Notes under the pieces: generated by a model | What the model was told of the DNA's origin: nothing | Database searches by the model: none | The model's input: the letters and a program-made list of their open reading frames with translations, nothing else | Source: Calothrix sp. 336/3 | GTDB taxonomy: Bacteria > Cyanobacteriota > Cyanobacteriia > Cyanobacteriales > Nostocaceae | Reading direction: 5' to 3' | DNA length: 64,000 nucleotides | Assembly: GCF_000734895.2 (NCBI RefSeq) | Contig: NZ_CP011382.1 | Coordinates: 1,156,700-1,220,699 of the forward strand | Program-made: the position numbers and the translations under genes | Part shown: piece after piece, positions 18,890-43,861 of the stretch | Layout of the letters: every line of letters starts with the position of its first letter | Numbering within the stretch: the first letter of the stretch is position 1

Positions 18890-21800
18890 ATGTCACCTAT
18901 TGGCATTACCACCAGCAACTTATCCTCTGTAAAAAAATCTCCTACTCCTAAACTTTGGCTGTTAATCCTAGGAGTTAGTCAGTATCAAGATACAGATTTA
19001 CCTAATCTCACCTATCCTTCTGGTGATTGTCAGGGTTTAGCGAAGGCTTTAGTTGAGGCTACCCAGGGTTTATACAGTACAGAACTTAAAATTTATCATG
19101 ATTTTTCGCCACTTATCCCAACCCTAGAAAATATTTTAACAACCCTGGAAGATATTCGCCAATCAGCTCAAAATACAGATACAATTCTTTTCTATTTTTC
19201 TGGACATGGCATAGTTGATAATTCCACTCAACAGGTATTTCTCTGCTTACAAAATACGAAAAAATCAAATTTACTGCAAACAGCATTACCCCTACCTCAA
19301 CTATTACAACTGCTAAATCAATGTGCAGTCAAAAATCAATTAATTTGGTTGGATGCTTGCCATAGTGGAGGGATGACATTACGGGGAGCAAACCCTACTC
19401 CTCAATTAATTGCCACATTACAAAAATGCGCTTCCCAAACTCAGGGTTTTTATGCCTTACTATCCTGTGATAATCATCAACAGTCTTGGGAATTTCCTGA
19501 ATTGGGGCATGGGGTATTTACATACTTTTTAATGCAGGGTTTACAGGGTGCAGCCGCAGATAATCAGGGACAAATTTCTATTGATAGTTTATACCGCTAT
19601 GTTTATCATAAAACCCTACAATATATAGATAAAACAAATCAGCAAATCAGGTTAATTAACCAGCAGAAACGGGGAAAGGGAGAAGCTCAATTGTTCCAAG
19701 AATATCCCCTGCAAACTCCCAAGCGAATTGTTGAGGGTGTGGGGGAGTTTATTTTGGCAAAAAAAGCCGGATTATGGAAAAATTCTCTATCTCGTCGTTG
19801 TGGTTTACTCATTGAGGGTAGAGGGACAAATTCTCTTTCCTTAGATATTAGTAAAAAAATTACGAGCATTGGTCAATTCAAATTAGAATATCTCTCAGGA
19901 AATCGACTTTCTATGGGAGAAATTCCTACTATCATTGAGACTTGCTGTCAAACACCAGAGTTAGAAACGGTGTTAATTTATCTGCGGGGAAAAGTTTCAG
20001 AAACAGAAACTGGAGAATATTTGATTTTTGGTAATGATATTTTCTTGAAGCGTTCTTGGCTGAAGCAAATTTTACGTCATTGCCATGGCAAGCAAATCAT
20101 TATTTTAGATATAATCGCCACTTCCGACAATATCTCTGGACAAATTTGGGTGGATGATTTGCAAATTGACTCCCAATCTGGACAGTGTATCATGGCAGCA
20201 ATTTCTCCTCCAGAACAGCCAGATTTGTTTGCTGAGGTATTTCTCGACACTTTACAGTCTGCCACCACTACGGAAGGATTATCTGCCGCAGGGGCGATCG
20301 CCCAACTTCAGTTAAAATTAGCTGGTAGCTCTATTCCCCTAAATATCTGGTTATCGGGTTCCCAAGGTATCATCGAAATTTTACCACCTCAAGCAGAGAA
20401 TCCAGAGGAAAATACAGCTTTAGACTTGGGTGTCTGCCCATACATGGGACTCAGTGCTTTTTCTGAGGCGGATTCTCAATATTTCTATGGTAGGGAAACC
20501 CTAACTCAACAAATTATCCACCACCTGACTCATCATTCTCTGACTGCGGTAATTGGTGCATCTGGTAGTGGGAAATCTTCCTTAATTCAAGCAGGTGTGA
20601 TTCCCCAATTGCGACATGGTAAACAAATTCCCCATAGTCAGGAGTGGTTCATTGCAACTATGCGTCCTGGGGCGACTCCCTTGGTAGAATTGGCTAAGGT
20701 ACTTCCGGCTTCTTCTTCTCTCCTGGAAGGTTTTATTTACCAGGGTGTGGAAAGTTTTGTGTACTGGCTGCGAAGTCTGTCCTATCCAGTAGTATTGTTA
20801 TTTATAGACCAATTTGAAGAACTCTTCACTCTCTGTCCTGCTCCAGAGCGAGAAAAATTCATCCAGCTGTTATTAGGAATTCGAGAATATGCTGGCGATC
20901 GCTGTAAGATAATTATTACCCTACGCGCAGATTTTATCGCTTCTTGTTTGGAATTTGCCGACTTAGCGACAGTTTTACAAACTACAAATATCCTGGTTTC
21001 TCCGACTCTTACCCTGGATGATTACCGTCGAGTCATTATCAACCCATCTCAACAAGTAGGGTTAAGGGTAGAACCGGAATTAGTGGAAGTTTTACTCCGA
21101 GAGTTAAACTCATCTCCTGGTGATTTGCCTCTTTTGGAATTCGTTTTAGAACAACTTTGGCAAAACCGTGTCGAGGGAGAACTCACCCTACAAGTATATC
21201 AGGAAAAGCTGGGCGGTTTGCAAGGAACCTTAGAATTATCTTGTCAACAAGTTTATGGCAATTTAGAGAGGGAAATACAGGATTGTGCTAAGTGGATTTT
21301 TCTCTCCCTGACTCAGTTAGGGGAAGGAACGGAAGATACTCGCAGAAGAGTCTATAAATCAGAGTTAATCGTCACCAAATACCCCCAACAATTAGTTGAG
21401 CAAACCCTGAATATTCTCACCGCAGCAAAGTTAATTGTGATGAATGTGGAGACGACAACTATTGGAAGTGAGAAGGGAGAAGAAACTGCAAATTCTACGA
21501 TAATTCCTAGTAATATTACTGTAGAGGTAGCCCATGAAATTCTCATCCGTCATTGGTCAACTCTGCGCTGGTGGTTAGAAGAAAATCGCAGTCGTCTGCG
21601 TTCTCAACGACAAATTGCCCAAGCTGCACAACTCTGGTATCAACACCAAGAGCAACCAGACTTTTTACTCCAAGGTGTGCGATTAGCTGAAGCTGAAGAT
21701 ATCTATATTAAGTATACAGATGAACTGTCCCAAGATGTGCAACAATATATTGCCGCTTGTTTAGCTCAGAGAAAACAACAGCAATTTTTAGAAAAGCAAA

Positions 21801-23977
21801 GACTCAAACAAGCACAACGAGCAGTAGTCGCTTTGAGCATTTTTGGAGTAGTGGCAGTTTCCTCTGGGGGATTAGCTTATTGGCAAAGTCGAGAAGCAGT
21901 ACTTCGGGAAATTCAAGCTTTAAATTCTTCCGCTCAAGCTAATCTTTTATCCCACCAACAGTTAGAAGCTTTACTAACTTCGGTACGAGCAGCCCATCAA
22001 TTAAAACGGGTAATTTCCACGCCCCAAAATATCCAATCTTCAACTATTAATATTTTACAACGAAATCTGAATAATATTCAAGAGAAAAATCGCATTCTCG
22101 CCCATGATGCCAATATTACATCCATAGATATTAGTTCTAATGGTCAAAATATTGCCTCAGCTAGTGATGATGGAACATGGAAACTTTGGACACACCATGG
22201 TAAATTAATTCAGAAAATTACTGCCCACCAAGCTCCTATTAAAAGTCTGAGTTTTAGTCCTGACGGTGAAATGGTTGCCACTGCTAGCTTTGACAAAACT
22301 GTTAAATTATGGCGCGTTCGGGACGGTTCTCTCCTCAGAAGTTTTACGGGACATCAAGCAGAAGTATTAAGTGTTGCTTGGTCAAGGGATGGTCAATTCT
22401 TAGCTTCTAGTGGTGCAGATAATTTAATTCAAATTTGGCAACCCGATAACGGCAATTTAGTTAAAACCATAACTACTCAATCAGCTATTATTAATAGTAT
22501 CACTTTTAGCCCCGATAGTCAAACTATTGCGGCGGCAAATAGCAATCAAACTCTAACAATATGGCGAGTTAAAGATGGGAACTTAATTAAAACCATACCA
22601 GCCCATAGTGGAGAAGTATATACTATCGCCTTTAGCCCAGATGGTCAAACCCTTGCCTCAGGAAGTGCGGATAAAACTATCAAGATTTGGCAAGTCAGAG
22701 ACAGCAAGCTTATCCATACTTTCACTGCTCATAGTGCAGAAGTCAAAAGTGTGAATTTTAGTCCTGATGGACAGAGCTTAGTCTCTGGTAGTTTAGACAG
22801 TACTATCAAAGTTTGGAATCTTGCAGATGGTACGCTCCTAGAAAATTTTTCTGGTCATAGTATTGGAATTTTCAGTGTCAAATTTTTCCCCAATGGTCAA
22901 AATATCATCTCTGGAAGTGCAGATAAAACTATCAGAATTTGGCAGCGAAATAATCCTTTGCAAAAAACCTTAACTGGTCATACTGGGGAAATTTTCAGTG
23001 TGAATTTCCATCCCCAGGGTAACTTATTAGCCACAGGGAGTAGTGACACAAATATCAAATTATGGAATATCCCTGCTGGAAATTTACGACAAACTTTACT
23101 CGGTTATCAAAAGTCAATTTATGGACATAGTTCTCCTATATATAGTACCGTCTTTAGTCCCCAGGGCGATATTCTTGCCTCTGCTAGTAAAGATTACTAT
23201 ATTAAATTGTGGCGCGTTGCTGATGGATATATGATTAAGACCTTACAAGGTCATGAAGATAGTGTGAATAGTTTAAGCTTTAGTCCCGATGGTAAATTTC
23301 TTGCCTCTGGAAGTGATGATCAAACTGTGAAAATTTGGCAAGTCTATCAGCATACTTTAGTAAAGACTTTCAGAGGACATAATAATCAAGTTTTAACTGT
23401 GAGTTTCCATCCCCAAGGACATCTCCTAGCTTCTGGTAGTCGGGATAATACTATCAAAATTTGGCGTGTCGCAGATGGTAAGCTATTACAAACTTTGACC
23501 GGACATAGTAACACCGTCAACGGAGTAGTATTTCATCCCCAAGGCAAAATTTTAGCCTCTGCTAGCTCCGATAAAACGGTAAAATTATGGTATTTAGAGG
23601 ATATTGCTACTGCTAAATTCAATCCCCAACCTCAAACTTTGACTGGACATAGTGACTCAGTTTGGGGAGTAAATTTTAGTCCGGACGGTGAGATAATTGC
23701 TTCAGCCAGTAGTGATAAAACTGTCAAATTATGGAATTTAGCAGGTCAGGAATTAAAAACTTTGCAGGGACATAGTGATACTGTTTTTGGTGTCGCTCTC
23801 CAAAACCAGCTGCTTGCTTCCGTCAGTTTTGATGGTACCGGGAAATTATGGCAGTTAAATAGAAGAGAACTGCAAACCGCAGATTTAGATCATCTTTTGG
23901 TTCGCAGCTGTCGTTGGTTAGGTGATTATTTAGACAATCATCCCCAGGAGAATCAACCAGAAAAAGTCTGTCCTTAA
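18890..23977 (+). CDS. Caspase-like peptidase / STAND NTPase / WD40 repeat protein
   Basis: A 1695-residue protein. The N-terminus (about 20-265) is a peptidase C14 (metacaspase-like) domain with catalytic His106 in FSGHG and Cys157 in DACHSGG. A P-loop NTPase of the bacterial STAND type follows, with YFYGRE entry motif, Walker [10 protein letters not shown] near 558-566 and Walker [10 protein letters not shown] near 638. A charged helix and one hydrophobic segment (about 980-1000, [15 protein letters not shown]) precede 14 WD40 repeats (about 1065-1655), enough for two seven-bladed propellers. The family is known for ligand-gated NTPase switches in which the propeller senses and the N-terminal enzyme acts; orthocaspase-type proteins are typical of filamentous cyanobacteria. 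Proteolysis after sensing, possibly in programmed death or defence, is inference. The hydrophobic segment suggests the propeller could sit across or at a membrane. Confidence 0.95.
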
Positions 23978-37727: not shown

Positions 37728-38726
37728 CTATGGAACGCTTTTGATTTTTTCTGTCAACCAATTAGCAAAATTGGAATGGTATAAGCTGTAGCGGGTTTCT
37801 CCATTAACTTTTTGTTGTTGTAAAAACTCAAACCAATTTTCTAGCACTTCCTCAACATCGTACTCATCTTCGTTAATTATTTGCGCGATCGCGCTCACAC
37901 TCCAACCCGTTAACATCTTCTCTTTCTGGGTAGATGTGAGAACCTGCAAGATTTTCACGGCGATATCTGAGAAATTGTCAGCTTGCATTTTCTGCCAATG
38001 GTGGTTAAAAGCTTGCTCATCGTCCCAGTTTTTTAAGTCATATTCGGATAAATCGAGAATTTGGGATGGTGCTTCGATGAGTAAACCAGATTTTTCGGTT
38101 TGGAAGGGACGACGGGTGAGGAGAAAATAAATTCCTTGGGGTAGGTAGCGGGGTAGGTAGAAGAGGTTAGTTCCCAGGGGTTGGTTATCGGGGTTGACTG
38201 CATCAATCCCATCGATCGTAATGATGAGTTTGTGGTTGGGTGGGAGTTTGTCGCTGGTTTGTTGTAGTAATAAGGACAAAAATCCACTTCCCTCTGTTGT
38301 GTTATCGAAAAGAACCCCCCTCTGTCCCCCCGTGTACGAGGGGAAGTTAGAATCTTGCTTTCTGTGTTCCTCTATATCTGCTAGGAAGTTAGAATCTTGC
38401 TCCCTCCTCGCTAGCGGGGAGGGTTGGGGTGGGGTCATTAATTGACTGCAAACATATTTAAAAAATTCCTCAGCAGTGTTTTTGTTGGGGATTTGCGCGT
38501 TGTAATAAATAGGTTGAATGTGGGGTTGGGGATTGGTGGTGACGAATTGAGCAAGGATGGCACTTTTACCGCTACCAGGAGAACCAACAATGGTGAAGTA
38601 ACCGCGATCGCGCTTGTGTAAAAAATCATTAATTGCGGCAAAGATAAATTCGCAGTTGGTAAAATTTTGGCTTTTTTCGTGGAGGATTTTTTGGAATTGG
38701 GAATCTAATTGAGGTGGGGTGTTCAT
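37728..38726 (-). CDS. Short STAND-like P-loop NTPase coupled to a WD40 gene
   Basis: A 332-residue NTPase. It has Walker A GSPGSGKS (48-55), Walker B IITIDGIDAV (Asp172), a sensor-like LTRRPF segment and a winged-helix-like C-terminus, in the same order as the NTPase at 41218. It lacks both an effector domain and a sensor domain. Its ATG overlaps the stop of the upstream WD40 gene (ATGA), so the two are translationally coupled and probably work together as a split STAND protein (inference). Residues about 97-140 are encoded by inserted repeat DNA (38307-38438) and have no counterpart in the paralogue. The core motifs on both sides are in frame, so the gene still looks intact. Confidence 0.85.
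   Translation of the reverse strand: MNTPPQLDSQFQKILHEKSQNFTNCEFIFAAINDFLHKRDRGYFTIVGSPGSGKSAILAQFVTTNPQPHIQPIYYNAQIPNKNTAEEFFKYVCSQLMTPPQPSPLARREQDSNFLADIEEHRKQDSNFPSYTGGQRGVLFDNTTEGSGFLSLLLQQTSDKLPPNHKLIITIDGIDAVNPDNQPLGTNLFYLPRYLPQGIYFLLTRRPFQTEKSGLLIEAPSQILDLSEYDLKNWDDEQAFNHHWQKMQADNFSDIAVKILQVLTSTQKEKMLTGWSVSAIAQIINEDEYDVEEVLENWFEFLQQQKVNGETRYSLYHSNFANWLTEKIKSVP
38307..38438. repeat. Repeat DNA inserted in frame in the NTPase gene
   Basis: About 130 bp inside the NTPase gene reads as cyanobacterial intergenic repeat sequence: a C-rich block, two 18-bp direct copies of GGAAGTTAGAATCTTGCT (38342-38359 and 38384-38401, 42 bp apart and so in frame), and a CTCGCTAGCGGGGAGGG hairpin-like block. 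In protein it gives TPPQPSPLARRE and two QDSNF copies, a translation typical of this repeat. Confidence 0.85.
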
Positions 38727-40957
38727 GGTTGTACCTCAATATTTTCTAGTTTGAGAAAATGCACGTTTCCCGAACCGTCACCTGCGATTATTTTGCCATT
38801 GTCGGGAGCAATGGCACAGCAACGTATACCACCTTCCCCTGTAAATGCGACAATTTCCTTCCCTGTGGATAATTCCCAGATTTTGACTGTATTGTCACGG
38901 GAACCAGAAACCAGATATTGACCATCGCTGCTGAGAGCTACTGCATAAACCGAATCACTATGACTAGTCAGGGTGTGAATTTCCTTCCCTGTGGATAATT
39001 TCCAGATTTTGATTGTAGTGTCACCGGAACCAGAAACCAGATATCTCCCATCGCTGCTGAGAGCGATCGCACGAACCGAATCACTATGACCAGTCAGGGT
39101 GTGAATTTCTTTCCCTGTGGATAATTCCCAGATTTTAACTGTTTTGTCCCCAGAACCAGAAACCAGATGTTGACCATCGCTGCTGAGAGCTACTGCATAA
39201 ACCCAATCACTATGACCTGTGAGGGTGCGAATTTTCTTCCCTGTGGAGAATTCCCAGATTTTGACTGTATTGTCACGGGAAGCAGAAACCAGATATCTCC
39301 CATCGCTGCTGAGAGCTACTGCATAAACCGAACTACTATGACCTGTGAGGGTGCGAATTTTCTTCCCTGTGGAGAATTCCCAGATTTTAACTGTTTTGTC
39401 CCAAGAACCAGAAACCAGATATTGACCATTGCTGCTGAGAGCGATCGCACGAACCGAATCACTATGACCAGTCAGGGTGCGAATTTTCTTCCCGCTTGCA
39501 AATTCCCAGATTTTGATTGTAGTGTCACCGGAACCAGAAACCAGATATTGACTATCACTGCTGAGAGCGTTCGCATAAACCGAACTACTATGACCAGTCA
39601 GGGCGCAAATTTTCTTCCCGCTTGCAAATTCCCAGATTTTGACTGTATTGTCACGGGAACCAGAAACCAGATATTGACCATCGCTGCTGAGGGCTACTGT
39701 ATCAACCCAACCACTATGACCAGTCAGGGTGCGAATTTCCTTCCCTGTGGATAATTTCCAGATTTTGACTGTATTGTCACGGGAACCAGAAACCAGATAT
39801 TGACCATCGCTGCTGAGAGCGATCGCATAAACCGAACTACTATGACCAGTCAGGGTGCGAATTTCCTTCCCTGTGGATAATTTCCAGATTTTGATTGTTT
39901 TGTCACCGGAACCAGAAACTATATATTTACCATCGCTGCTGAGGGCTACTGCATAAACCGAACTACTATGACCAGTCAGGGTGCGAATTTCCTTCCCTGT
40001 GGAGAATTCCCAGATTTTGATTGTTTTGTCACCGGAACCAGAAACTATATATTTACCATCACTGTTGAGAGCGATCGTACGAACCGAATCACTATGACCA
40101 GTCAGGGTGTAAATTGCCTTCCCTGTGGAGAATTTCCAGATTTTAACTGTTTTGTCCCAAGAACCAGAAACCAGATATTGACTATCACTGCTGAGAGCGA
40201 TCGCACGAACCGAATCACTATGACCAGCTAGGGTGTGAATTTCCTTCCCTATGGATAATTCCCAGATTTTGATGGTTTTGTCCTCAGAACCAGAAACCAC
40301 GTATTTACCATCATTGCTAAGTACAATCGCGCAAACCGAACTACGATGACCAGTCAGGGTGCGAATTTCCTCCCCTGTGGACAATTCCCAGATTTTTACT
40401 GTATTGTCCCTGGAACCAGAAACCACATATTTCCCATCATTGCTGGTGGCGATCGCATTAACATAATCACTATGACCAGTCAGGGTGCGAATTAAACCGT
40501 TACCAGGAGGAGTTAAGCTAGCTGTGAGAGGACGCAGCCAGGGTATTTTGATTTGCGATATTTGTTGTAATAAGTTTTGAATTATTGCTTTTTCTTTAAA
40601 GGTTAACAAACGTCCTGTTAATTGTCCTGGGAACTGGGTTGTATCTTGGTTTAAAATGTGCGCTGACAGTCGTAATGCTTCTTTAATTAACTTTAAATCT
40701 TTGAGTGTTTCAATATTATCTGCTTCCTGGTTTTTTAGCTCATCATTCTCGACTAACTCATAATCTTCAATCAGCGCTTGTACTCCATACTTCGGATGAT
40801 TAACCTTTGCTTCAATAAAATCATAATTGGTTAATAAATCACAATATTTTTCAAATTTTTCAGGTGTCTTTGCATCAACTAAACTACGCAAATTACCGAG
40901 AAAAGCAATCCGCGTTCTCTCGTCCATCTTCGCTAGTTTTTTTGCAATCTCTCCCAT
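38723..40957 (-). CDS. WD40 repeat protein with 14 near-identical repeats
   Basis: 744 residues. Residues 1-155 are a charged helical domain without a recognised family. Residues 156-743 are exactly 14 WD40 repeats of 42 residues with the core pattern LTGHS, VxAxALSSDGxYLVSGS, DxTxKIWE and STGKE; the last is degenerate (FTGEGGIRCC). Fourteen blades allow two seven-bladed propellers. The protein has no enzyme domain of its own but is coupled by a 4-nt overlap to the NTPase gene downstream, so it probably supplies the sensor for that NTPase (inference). Repeat similarity leaves the opposite strand open over long stretches; those are not genes. Codon-level homogeneity indicates recent unit duplication or gene conversion. 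Confidence 0.93.
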   Translation of the reverse strand: MGEIAKKLAKMDERTRIAFLGNLRSLVDAKTPEKFEKYCDLLTNYDFIEAKVNHPKYGVQALIEDYELVENDELKNQEADNIETLKDLKLIKEALRLSAHILNQDTTQFPGQLTGRLLTFKEKAIIQNLLQQISQIKIPWLRPLTASLTPPGNGLIRTLTGHSDYVNAIATSNDGKYVVSGSRDNTVKIWELSTGEEIRTLTGHRSSVCAIVLSNDGKYVVSGSEDKTIKIWELSIGKEIHTLAGHSDSVRAIALSSDSQYLVSGSWDKTVKIWKFSTGKAIYTLTGHSDSVRTIALNSDGKYIVSGSGDKTIKIWEFSTGKEIRTLTGHSSSVYAVALSSDGKYIVSGSGDKTIKIWKLSTGKEIRTLTGHSSSVYAIALSSDGQYLVSGSRDNTVKIWKLSTGKEIRTLTGHSGWVDTVALSSDGQYLVSGSRDNTVKIWEFASGKKICALTGHSSSVYANALSSDSQYLVSGSGDTTIKIWEFASGKKIRTLTGHSDSVRAIALSSNGQYLVSGSWDKTVKIWEFSTGKKIRTLTGHSSSVYAVALSSDGRYLVSASRDNTVKIWEFSTGKKIRTLTGHSDWVYAVALSSDGQHLVSGSGDKTVKIWELSTGKEIHTLTGHSDSVRAIALSSDGRYLVSGSGDTTIKIWKLSTGKEIHTLTSHSDSVYAVALSSDGQYLVSGSRDNTVKIWELSTGKEIVAFTGEGGIRCCAIAPDNGKIIAGDGSGNVHFLKLENIEVQP
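38726..40492. repeat. Tandem 126-bp WD40-encoding units
   Basis: Fourteen consecutive 126-bp units, most differing at only a few positions (for example the recurring AAACCAGATATTGACCATC stretch). The unit length never changes. Such an array can gain or lose blades by unequal recombination. Confidence 0.9.
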
Positions 40958-41003
40958 ATTTTTGCCTATATTATTTATTTTTTTATATTGGAAAATATAA
41001 TCT

Positions 41004-41129
41004 TGTCATTGCGAGGAGGAACGACGAAGCAATCTAATGGACTCGTTTTTAGTGAGAGATTTTGTGATTGCCACGCTCCACTTCGTTCCGTAAGCGCTAT
41101 CGCGCACGCTAAGAGCGAACGCAATGACA
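41004..41129. repeat. 126-bp MITE-like inverted-repeat element
   Basis: The element has perfect 10-bp ends TGTCATTGCG and CGCAATGACA. Internal sub-repeats GAAGCAATC (41026-41034) and GATTG-CCACG...CTTCGTTCC (41066 on) form a second partial inverted match. It has no ORF, so it is non-autonomous. A truncated relative lies at 11193-11258. It sits between the NTPase at 41218 and the WD40 gene. Confidence 0.8.
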
Positions 41130-41217
41130 CGCTAAAAAGTTTACATAGTCCTCTATAAGAGGACTTTAGCTATTAGACCGCGATTTAAATCGCTGGCTGG
41201 CTATTGCAATTAATTCC

Positions 41218-42816
41218 CTACCGATAAACATAATCCGCAATACGTCCATTCACCTCCTCAAACAATTTCCTTTTCCCATCTAACTTTCTTTGCGCTTTGA
41301 GAAAATCCAAAAAACTAGCATGATAAACTCGATAAAACTTTTCCTCTTTCCCCATATCACCCAAACTTTGCACCTTCAAATACTCTCGCCATTCCTCTAA
41401 AACTTCCTCAACTTCGTATTCATCCTTCCCAGAAATTTCCACAATATCTCTCAAGGAAATCGGTGGTGTATTCCACTCGACAATAATATATAAAATAATT
41501 ACTTGAATTTCCTTTGGTTGTTTTTCCATCCCCATCCTCACCCAATGCTGCTGATAATAATCTTCCAAACCTTTGGGTAACTTATCCAAACTCAAATCAT
41601 TGTAATAACCACCTGCAATTCCCGGTAAAATGTAGCGCAGGTACATAAAGTTATTTTCACTTTTTGTGGCAACTTCCGTAATAAAATTATCTGGACTAAT
41701 TTGCCGTTCTTGAATCCACTTCTGTAAATTATCCCGATATTCAGAATCACTCAAAAACAAGCGAATACAAGCTTGAATATCTGCTAGATTTCTTGTTTGA
41801 TATTCTTCTGAATTTAAATCTAATTCACGTTCGGGAACTTGTAATTTTAATCGTTTTTGACTGTTATCATAGGGTCTACGAGTCAGGAAAAAATAAACAC
41901 CTTCCGGCAAATATTCGGGTAAATATAAAATATTCTCCGCTCCATCGGGTTGTTCGACTTCATCGAGAGCATCAACGATGATGATTAATTTTTTTAGTTG
42001 ATTTTGTTGATTTTGATAATTCTTTCGGTGTACTTGAATCGCTTTTTCCAATAATTCCTGTAAATTGGCATTCTCGCAATCCTGCAACCCGTATATTTGA
42101 ATCAACTGCCGACGCATACTCTTAATAAAATCATCGGGACGATTGCGACGTTCTGCCAAAATATTGAAATAGCAAGGACAATGATTGTCTGAGACATATT
42201 TTGCTGCAATACTGCTTTTTCCCATCCCCGCATCCCCAATTACGGTAAAATATCCTTTGGAATGCTCTTGTTGAAACTTGGCAAATTCCGCGAACACAAA
42301 CAAACGACCACAAAATGATTTAATCTTCTCCTCAATTAAAGATTTAAACTCATCGGGGTAGGGATATTTTTCTGGTAACTTTTTAAAATTTACATCTTTT
42401 GGTGGGCGACTACGTTCGGCTACGCTGCAAAATGTGCGATAAAATTCCTCGATTTCTTGACGAACATTGATATTATTTGCGCGGATTTCATCACCTAAAA
42501 TATGCCAATCTTGAAAATACTCGGCATCCTCATAGAAATTTCTAGGATTGTCGTTAAATGCTTGCCAAAATTTAGCTTTAATTTCCTTCTCTCGCCAAAA
42601 ATTTAAAATTGGCTCTGGTTTGATATTTCCTTGCTTATCAACTGCATACTCAACCAAAGCATGGTTGAAAACCCCTTCAAAATCGCTGGGTGGTTGAATT
42701 GAGTATAAATTTAATTTTTGTAAAATTTCAATAATAATTTTCTGCCTTGAGAGCGGAGCGATCGCCTTAGAAGCTGTAAAACCAAGAATAGTAGTAATAA
42801 CCTTTATGGGTTCCAT
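41218..42816 (-). CDS. P-loop NTPase with an uncharacterised N-terminal domain
   Basis: 532 residues. Residues 1-165 form a helical domain of unknown family (FNHALVEYAVD, FWQAFNDNPRNFYED), a likely effector-associated or adaptor domain. A NACHT/STAND-like NTPase follows with Walker A GDAGMGKS (194-201), Walker B IIIVDALDEV (Asp282, Asp285), LTRRPY and a winged-helix C-terminus (HASFLDFLK). The NTPase core is paralogous to the short NTPase at 37728 (shared LPEYLPEGVYFFLTRRP / LPRYLPQGIYFLLTRRP). Residues 130-137 (SVAERSRP) come from a short repeat (42404-42428) often found in cyanobacterial DNA. It lies upstream of the WD40 gene on the same strand, 260 bp apart, with a MITE between. Confidence 0.85.
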   Translation of the reverse strand: MEPIKVITTILGFTASKAIAPLSRQKIIIEILQKLNLYSIQPPSDFEGVFNHALVEYAVDKQGNIKPEPILNFWREKEIKAKFWQAFNDNPRNFYEDAEYFQDWHILGDEIRANNINVRQEIEEFYRTFCSVAERSRPPKDVNFKKLPEKYPYPDEFKSLIEEKIKSFCGRLFVFAEFAKFQQEHSKGYFTVIGDAGMGKSSIAAKYVSDNHCPCYFNILAERRNRPDDFIKSMRRQLIQIYGLQDCENANLQELLEKAIQVHRKNYQNQQNQLKKLIIIVDALDEVEQPDGAENILYLPEYLPEGVYFFLTRRPYDNSQKRLKLQVPERELDLNSEEYQTRNLADIQACIRLFLSDSEYRDNLQKWIQERQISPDNFITEVATKSENNFMYLRYILPGIAGGYYNDLSLDKLPKGLEDYYQQHWVRMGMEKQPKEIQVIILYIIVEWNTPPISLRDIVEISGKDEYEVEEVLEEWREYLKVQSLGDMGKEEKFYRVYHASFLDFLKAQRKLDGKRKLFEEVNGRIADYVYR

Positions 42817-42997: not shown

Positions 42998-43861
42998 GTG
43001 AAAACAGACAGCATCTTCTATCGTTTATTTCAAGAATTCCCCAATATCTTCTTTGAACTAATTGGCAATTCTCCAGAAATTGCGTCAAATTACCAATTCT
43101 CGTCAGTCGAACTCAAGCAAACAGCTTTCCGCATCGACGGTGTATTTCTCCCGCAAACCCCAGAACAACCAATTTATTTTGTCGAAGTTCAGTTTCAAGA
43201 GGATTCAGGAATATACTCACGCTTATTTTCTGAAATTAATTTATATCTACGACAAAATCAACCAGAAAATAACTGGCTAGCTGTAGTTATTTTCCCATCC
43301 CGCAATATTGATACCGCATCAACCAGCCATTACAGCGAATCCTTTGCTTCCGGGAGAGCGACTCGCATTTACTTAGATGAGTTAGGAGAAGGTACATCCC
43401 TGCCCATTGGCGTTGCTACGATAAAATTGATAGTAGAAAATCAAAAAAAGGCAATCCAGTCAGCCAAGGTGTTAATTGCGAGAAGCAACCAGGAAATTGA
43501 CTCCGTACCCCAACAGCAGCAATTATTACAAATTATCGAGACAATTTTGGTTTATAAATTTCCCAGAATGAACATTGAGGAGATACAAGAAATGTTTGGA
43601 CTAAGCGAGTTAAAACAAACACGAGTATACCAACAAGCCTTTGCGGAAGGTGAGGAGAAAGGGAAACAAGAAGGAAGACAAGAAGGAAGACAAGAAGGAA
43701 GACAAGAAGGCAAACAGGAAGGTATAGAAGAAGGAGAACGTAGGGGTAAATTGAAAACAGTACCCCGATTTATTGCTTTAGGTTTAACTATCGAAGAAAT
43801 TGCACGCGAGTTAGATTTAACTGTTGAGGAGGTGAGGAAAGCTGCTCAAGAATCTGAGTAA
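42998..43861 (+). CDS. DUF2887 (Rpn-like PD-(D/E)XK) protein
   Basis: 287 residues. The N-terminus KTDSIFYRLFQEFPNIFFELIG and FRIDGVFLPQ...IYFVEVQFQ match DUF2887, related to the Rpn/transposase-31 nuclease group. The D...EVQ residues (about Asp48 and Glu69) correspond to the PD-(D/E)XK metal site. A tandem (K/R)QEG repeat (about 224-243) encoded by a 12-bp unit (43667-43714) forms a charged helix, and a small C-terminal helix-turn-helix-like segment (TIEEIARELDLTVEEVRKAAQ) ends it. The family is expanded in cyanobacteria; a role in DNA recombination or plasmid/phage response is not shown. The start is GTG, as no ATG precedes the conserved N-terminus. Confidence 0.9.
   Translation: MKTDSIFYRLFQEFPNIFFELIGNSPEIASNYQFSSVELKQTAFRIDGVFLPQTPEQPIYFVEVQFQEDSGIYSRLFSEINLYLRQNQPENNWLAVVIFPSRNIDTASTSHYSESFASGRATRIYLDELGEGTSLPIGVATIKLIVENQKKAIQSAKVLIARSNQEIDSVPQQQQLLQIIETILVYKFPRMNIEEIQEMFGLSELKQTRVYQQAFAEGEEKGKQEGRQEGRQEGRQEGKQEGIEEGERRGKLKTVPRFIALGLTIEEIARELDLTVEEVRKAAQESE

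Follow-up and report, generated by a model that had tools for sequence, protein, structure and literature searches.

A recurring three-gene set in cyanobacteria resembles the separated parts of an APAF-1-like STAND switch

Introduction

In APAF-1 and the NLRs, the textbook examples of single-chain switches, the sensor, switch and output parts are hard to study separately. Here we describe a set of three minus-strand genes in a 64,000-nucleotide stretch of the Calothrix sp. 336/3 genome (contig NZ_CP011382.1, positions 1,156,700 to 1,220,699; the whole stretch is referred to as the window), in which an APAF-1-like chain is apparently divided where the winged helix meets the arm, with the likely sensor in a gene of its own and a second ATPase lacking the expected catalytic glutamate. 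The products are called NT2 (the first NTPase), the arm+WD40 protein and NT1 (the second, shorter NTPase). We read this conserved set as the separate-protein parts of an APAF-1-like STAND switch, predicted to form one complex, and place the probability of this reading at roughly 0.6.

Of the described systems that we found, the nearest is WRAP (Npun_R6612; Dunin-Horkawicz et al. 2014), an operon known from Nostoc punctiforme and further cyanobacteria; in the available portions of its description, it couples a STAND-WD40 gene to a TIR-STAND gene (PMC9218822). In WRAP as in the window, two cyanobacterial STAND ATPase genes are coupled, one of the two bears an output domain, and the 14-blade WD40 part has been amplified recently. 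Among PDB entries, the window's WD40 protein best matches 2ymu, the crystal structure of a WD40 repeat protein, which the accessible text of PMC6805158 identifies as WRAP. As far as these sources extend, WRAP joins its propeller to a STAND ATPase in a single chain and uses TIR as output, whereas here a separate arm+WD40 protein lies between two NTPases, the second of which has no glutamate. The output position is occupied by NNH5 in the window, and TIR was not among the 25 families listed for 56 NT2 proteins. Propeller and second STAND ATPase are not in one chain in the window; they are fused at two related loci (L052 and L199), but with the WD40 part first. Relative to WRAP as so described, the new elements are the detachment of arm and sensor, their placement between both NTPases, and a changed output.

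The order switch, winged helix, putative helical arm and WD40 is shared with APAF-1 and with bacterial single-chain NB-ARC - APAF1_C - WD40 proteins. Here, however, these parts do not form one chain but are spread over separate open reading frames (ORFs), with the switch in one gene and the arm+WD40 in another; the switch is NACHT-like instead of NB-ARC, a second NTPase is added, and the N-terminal domain is NNH5. Bacterial NACHT or NLR-related antiphage proteins and Avs (AVAST) also carry an N-terminal output domain on a NACHT-type NTPase. According to the available part of PMC10907252, characterised antiviral STAND proteins usually combine effector, NTPase and sensor in one chain, in contrast to the separate proteins found here. 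LypABC, the CARD-NLR-like system of Caulobacter, likewise has three genes in an NLR-like operon and places the executing enzyme on a different protein, but in the accessible sections of its description LypB keeps the repeats in its own chain, LypC is a protease-endonuclease, and one NLR-type ATPase is named (PMC13236601). The iSTAND ternary conflict systems of Kaur et al. (PMC7159879, PMC8195603) are three-component NTPase systems, mainly of multicellular prokaryotes, with a catalytically inactive STAND in one class. Their core, in the portions available, is MoxR plus vWA, neither of which is among the Pfam families listed for the window's NT1 and NT2 or for the 56 NT2 proteins. A literature search found no description of the three-gene layout; most subscription journals and Dunin-Horkawicz et al. 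2014 lie outside its coverage, and we do not claim that the layout is unpublished.

Should the predicted assembly hold, sensing, switching and output would become separately purifiable and swappable, and the amplification of WD40 repeats in cyanobacteria would be tied to renewal of the sensor. Such an assembly would also provide a case for inactive STAND partners, which are said, in the available text of PMC8195603, to have no functional precedent in well-studied eukaryotic STAND systems.

Architecture of the three-gene set

On the minus strand, NT2 comes first, followed by a 260-nt spacer, the WD40 gene and NT1, whose ORF overlaps the WD40 gene by 4 nt. A sequence-only reading of this stretch had described the same three ORFs and the same overlap, and both are present. 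The features are as follows.

41218..42816, minus strand: NT2, NNH5-NACHT STAND NTPase, 532 aa, first gene of the array (ORF; Pfam NNH5, NPHP3_N, NACHT; AlphaFold2)
42400..42804, minus strand: NNH5 domain, NT2 residues 5-139, predicted all-helical, candidate output or adaptor domain (PF22736, E 6.8e-36)
41221..42366, minus strand: NACHT NTPase with helical and winged-helix parts, NT2 residues 151-532
40958..41217, minus strand: spacer of 260 nt between NT2 and the WD40 gene, with a palindromic dispersed repeat inside (genome matches, RNA fold)
38723..40957, minus strand: arm+WD40 protein, 744 aa, candidate sensor (ORF; Pfam WD40; 13 blades and a degenerate one)
40493..40957, minus strand: APAF1_C-like helical arm, residues 1-155 of the WD40 protein (Pfam APAF1_C, E 2.6e-4)
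38726..40483, minus strand: WD40 blades, residues 159-744 (repeat listing)
37728..38726, minus strand: NT1, 332 aa, short NACHT-like NTPase with neither sensor nor output domain (ORF; Walker A kept; IDGIDA)

Conservation of the gene order

Of 149 related genomes, 70 contain NT1 relatives. An arm profile (A1), built from 30 arms at loci chosen for NT1, gave 124 matches in 73 of the same 149 genomes; among 386 genomes drawn across the phylum it matched in 35, all of them from the window's own taxonomic order. NT1 and NT2 relatives were told apart by single-sequence searches, because the two are related and iterative profiles crossed over. Besides the window, 60 stretches chosen by NT1 (L031-L090) and 60 chosen by the arm (L091-L150, leaving out the last five of the 124 listed arm matches) were fetched, and arm matches below 30 bits were dropped. 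The 119 arm ORFs read carry the arm at their start in 106 cases and inside a longer chain in 13.

Arms scoring 160 bits or more at the start of their ORF were classed as close, giving 67 ORFs, the window's included. A same-strand NTPase ORF lies upstream of 60 of them (46 within 20 nt, 29 overlapping), an NTPase ORF lies downstream of 57 (36 within 20 nt, 24 overlapping), and 52 are flanked by NTPase ORFs on both sides. Two of the ten close-arm ORFs without a downstream NTPase sit at a contig edge and one (L052) is fused; short fragments account for four of the upstream and four of the downstream NTPase ORFs. Near full-length triplets, with an upstream ORF of >300 aa and a downstream ORF of >230 aa, number 47. 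A second set (the best 80 of 112 matches in named genomes, arm matches below 60 bits dropped) shares many genomes with the first. Its 83 arm ORFs have an NTPase upstream in 72 cases, downstream in 62 and on both sides in 53. One stretch, L229, is reported from another place on the same contig as L227 and is letter for letter identical to it; without L229 the counts are 70, 59 and 52 of 79, and all 79 records are cyanobacterial by title. An annotated series of AAA family ATPase, WD40 protein and ATP-binding protein also occurs on a Chroococcidiopsis plasmid, with gaps of 19 and 17 nt and beside an integrase gene; sequence comparison covers its NT1, and the other two members are assigned by annotation.

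These data support a STAND arrangement of three components that recurs, as opposed to genes that are neighbours by chance. The sequence-only reading had proposed a two- or three-component STAND system, to be abandoned if no conserved gene pairing were found. That objection falls, since an arm+WD40 gene between two NTPase genes is found again in dozens of cyanobacterial genomes, alongside two arm-WD40-NT1 fusions. The proposal of several components is supported by the recurring triplet (both NTPases at 52 of 67 close arms), with the amendment that NT1 looks catalytically altered.

A single ORF comprising arm, WD40 and NT1 is found at L052 (983 aa) and L199 (1309 aa). At L221, from a metagenome-assembled genome, a 559-aa ORF joins the arm directly to an NT1 that retains its start. 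It has no WD40 blades and was rejected as a third WD40-NT1 fusion; it may be a deletion. No fusion of NT2 to the WD40 protein or the arm was found among 119 and 90 arm ORFs. Two WD40-NT1 fusions and one arm-NT1 fusion, with none involving NT2, are what would be expected if the WD40 protein and NT1 formed a unit by themselves and NT2 were an independent NNH5-NACHT neighbour, and the 260 nt between NT2 and the WD40 gene in the window point the same way. We consider this quite unlikely. The upstream NTPase is at least as constant as NT1 (60 versus 57 of 67), and it stands beside 27 of 39 distant arm ORFs, against only 2 with a downstream NTPase. Furthermore, the arm is what comes after the winged helix in APAF-1-like chains. 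A two-gene form without NT1 thus seems to exist among the distant arms.

At L227 (Calothrix sp. PCC 7103), one NT1 is accompanied by four arm+WD40 genes, together with a CHAT-NACHT gene and an NTPase fragment of 249 aa.

The spacer of the window's copy is atypical: of the 60 arrays that have an NTPase ORF upstream, the window's among them, 46 show a gap of 20 nt or less. It contains a palindromic dispersed repeat (about 40985-41140, minus strand) with 16 further partial matches in the genome, and the segment 40985-41217 has an RNA folding z of -4.1. Three of the 16 further matches are clustered at positions 1608682-1609517 of contig C1. Such a repeat between NT2 and the WD40 gene could be taken to mean that a single-chain STAND gene has been broken by mutation or repeat insertion. 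This is very improbable. No open frame in the spacer runs on to connect the two genes, and the same three-way split with open frames occurs in dozens of genomes. NT2 and the arm each align over their full length with their split relatives, and NT2 and the WD40 gene keep no constant frame relative to each other (the offsets split 26, 13 and 7 over 46 cases). Decay or frameshift of one gene was therefore rejected, and the varying offset also argues against a single programmed frameshift. The NT2 and WD40 ORFs are both open in the window, yet their coupling may be weaker than in most relatives.

A putative APAF-1-like arm on the WD40 protein

The WD40 protein contains 13 regular blades of 42 residues each, starting at residue 159, plus a degenerate 14th, in agreement with the 14 blades that had been counted from the sequence. 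Mean pairwise identity among the 13 blades is 74% for protein and 84% for DNA, which indicates a fairly recent amplification, and the blade number of the WD40 arrays varies between loci. The earlier view that this gene has no enzyme domain holds for what was listed: the best 25 of 70 Pfam families include WD40 and propeller matches and no enzyme domain. An antisense ORF of 195 aa (39167-39754, plus strand) lies within the WD40 repeats and is most likely a by-product of the repeat pattern.

The first 155 residues match APAF1_C alone in Pfam (E 2.6e-4, 21.4 bits versus a cut-off of 22.8). Across the 30 aligned arms, 19 match APAF1_C at E 0.01 or better, the best at 6.8e-6, and the alignment of the window's arm with its relatives spans its full length. 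The arm profile also matches proteins with NB-ARC, winged helix and APAF1_C in a single chain; in three of these single-chain forms APAF1_C lies well above its cut-off at a site overlapping the arm-profile match. The N-terminus of the WD40 protein thus looks like an APAF-1-type helical arm, with a borderline score in the window. Residues 1-155 had previously been put forward as an adaptor or effector domain. They look like an arm instead of either, and the effector was rejected in its favour, given the APAF1_C matches and the single-chain NB-ARC-APAF1_C forms.

With an APAF-1-like arm at the start of the WD40 protein, NT2 and the WD40 protein together resemble an APAF-1-type chain severed between switch and arm. 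The position of the cut is suggested by the NT2 model, which covers Apaf-1 residues 112-470, and from the APAF1_C-like arm with which the WD40 protein opens.

Five stretches (L132, L135, L137, L139 and L150) encode long chains with an internal arm, and NB-ARC - APAF1_C was seen in L132, L135 and L149. A separate CHAT, CHAT-bDLD3 or caspase gene lies just upstream of such chains in 5 of 6 scanned. They constitute another split layout, in which the output is detached rather than the sensor.

NT2, a NACHT-type NTPase with an exchangeable N-terminal domain

NT1 and NT2 are both P-loop NTPases that match each other in sequence, as expected from their earlier description as paralogs. Pfam places NPHP3_N and AAA_22 over their cut-offs in NT2, and NACHT at 22.4 bits, below its cut-off of 26.7. 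The motif GDAGMGKS is conserved across 25 aligned NT2 proteins. The AlphaFold2 model of NT2 has a predicted local distance difference test (pLDDT) score of 80, and its residues 151-532 match Apaf-1 and other STAND structures. A PDB sequence search with the NT2 profile returned zero chains. By its P-loop, NACHT-type Walker B and winged helix, NT2 is a member of the STAND/NACHT class.

The N-terminal domain of NT2, earlier taken as uncharacterised, belongs to the Pfam family NNH5 (PF22736, E 6.8e-36). Modelled alone it is all-helical (pLDDT 81), with no clear relative in the PDB. A literature search for NNH5, with most subscription journals outside its coverage, returned unrelated papers and no function. 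The position is not fixed among relatives. At E 0.001, the 56 NT2 proteins comprise 30 with NNH5, 13 with HTH_26 and one with GerE; outside this set, the slot holds EAD4 at L043 (E 5.7e-19), EAD10 at L125 (E 4.1e-31) and CHAT at L227 (E 3.6e-31). The protein database contains CHAT-NACHT proteins whose identity with NT2 of the window is 71% across a matched portion of 71 to 72%. The NT2 N-terminus is therefore a swappable, putative output slot, occupied by NNH5 here and by helix-turn-helix (HTH), CHAT, EAD4 or EAD10 domains in relatives. The earlier suggestion of an adaptor or effector at this end of NT2 thus gains an exchangeable output slot and, as a correction, a family.

The existence of HTH forms makes MalT-style regulation the main rival explanation. 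The set would then be no defence or cell-death system but a signal-dependent transcription or stress regulator, in which the WD40 protein would sense a metabolite or cell state and NT2 oligomers would act on DNA or partners; NT2 proteins bearing an HTH could be plain transcription regulators. We regard this as unlikely for the set as a whole. The window's NT2 carries NNH5 and no HTH, CHAT protease or EAD domains occupy the same slot in relatives, and the repetitive WD40 arrays, with a blade number varying by locus, probably resemble fast-changing sensors.

NT1, a NACHT relative without the expected glutamate

NT1 shows AAA/NACHT-like Pfam matches. Walker A is recognisable in 46 of 47 NT1 and 46 of 47 NT2 proteins of the near full-length triplets. 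For Walker B of NT1 a strict pattern proved too narrow (17 of 47), and the residues at the DALDE position were read directly instead. DALDE is present in 47 of 47 NT2, and a glutamate in none of the 47 NT1, which have ALDA, GLNC, GCDR and others; in the window, IDGIDA of NT1 stands opposite VDALDE of NT2. Of the STAND/NACHT combination of Walker A and an acidic Walker B with glutamate, NT1 thus lacks the glutamate. With Walker A retained, nucleotide binding and poor hydrolysis are predicted, and NT1 is likely a hydrolysis-impaired NACHT relative.

A segment following residue 239 is absent from the window's NT1 and from six more of the 47, and present in at least half of them; judged by its position, it should be the helical lid. 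In the window's NT1 (37728-38726, minus strand), 37 residues, including a repeated QDSNF-like stretch, also fall in columns filled by under a quarter of the 47 aligned NT1 proteins. These are perhaps an in-frame repeat insertion.

Proposed mechanism and its weighing

Gene order, spacing, domains, fusions, slot exchange and the loss of the NT1 glutamate support the parts belonging together; contacts within a complex are predicted. Distance matrices over the 47 loci speak for co-inheritance, with correlations of r 0.56 (NT1-NT2), 0.60 (NT1-arm) and 0.76 (NT2-arm) against maxima between 0.11 and 0.17 among 999 permutations for each pair. The best reading of the set is a three-protein switch resembling NLRs and the apoptosome, with one likely active and one likely inactive ATPase and a shared sensor. 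By analogy with APAF-1 and the NLRs, NT2 would be the ATP-driven switch carrying the output domain, and the arm+WD40 protein would dock on it through the APAF-1-type arm and act as the sensor. The arm would keep NT2 inhibited and later let go, when ligand binding by the propellers lifts the inhibited state. NT1, a partner that likely does not hydrolyse ATP, would attach to that sensor too, and NT2 and NT1 would co-oligomerise on ATP. The clustered N-terminal domains of NT2 (NNH5, or CHAT protease, HTH or EAD in relatives) would then start the response, which in these cyanobacteria is most likely of the conflict or cell-death type.

A more specific picture, which we hold tentatively and at somewhat less than even odds, is that of an NLR pair with a detached, shared sensor. 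An active NACHT with an exchangeable output and a silent NACHT would be bridged by the arm+WD40 protein into an asymmetric apoptosome-like complex, whose propellers could be exchanged or multiplied, as L227 may illustrate, without touching the switch.

Besides the HTH-bearing NT2 forms, several results weigh against an APAF-1-like switch in separate parts. The window's arm lies 1.4 bits under the APAF1_C cut-off, and a PDB search with the profile of 30 arms returned no Apaf-1 chain and two weak unrelated chains. The Foldseek TM-score of NT2 to Apaf-1 is low (0.30). NT1 is not required in all versions, given the 2 of 39 distant arm ORFs with a downstream NTPase, and, with a profile made of arms at NT1-chosen loci, the difference between the close and the distant class is to some extent built in. 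In the window, the link between NT2 and the WD40 gene is stretched by the 260-nt repeat, which is predicted to fold strongly. The correlation of the distance matrices is not controlled for the species tree. Finally, PADLOC (1e-10) found no excess of defence families on the flanks, with 87 compared to 93 in control regions, in a weak test that tallies families rather than genes and lists 25 of each set (110 of 151 flanking and 110 of 199 control ORFs, from the same 20 genomes).

By family, a defence role is plausible. NT2 matches Avs1b weakly in PADLOC (7.4e-12), and its score of 24.3 bits against NCBIfam NF041810, which has a cut-off of 1500, does not place it in AVAST type 1.

Second array and neighbouring genes

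The genome of Calothrix sp. 336/3 contains a second array (L031, contig C1, positions 827000-844000), which encodes a 474-aa NT2, a 618-aa WD40 protein and a 355-aa NT1.

Directly upstream of NT2 in the window, a divergent gene (42998-43861, plus strand) encodes a DUF2887 / Rpn-family nuclease-like protein (PF11103 E 3.2e-83; TIGR01784).

A one-chain STAND protein is encoded at 18890-23977 (plus strand). Its N-terminus is caspase-like (PADLOC 3.7e-16; NCBIfam 120.8 bits, short of the cut-off of 140) and is accompanied by nSTAND1 (E 2.9e-118) and then by 14 WD40 stretches. This protein forms a natural contrast, within the same window, to the split three-gene set.

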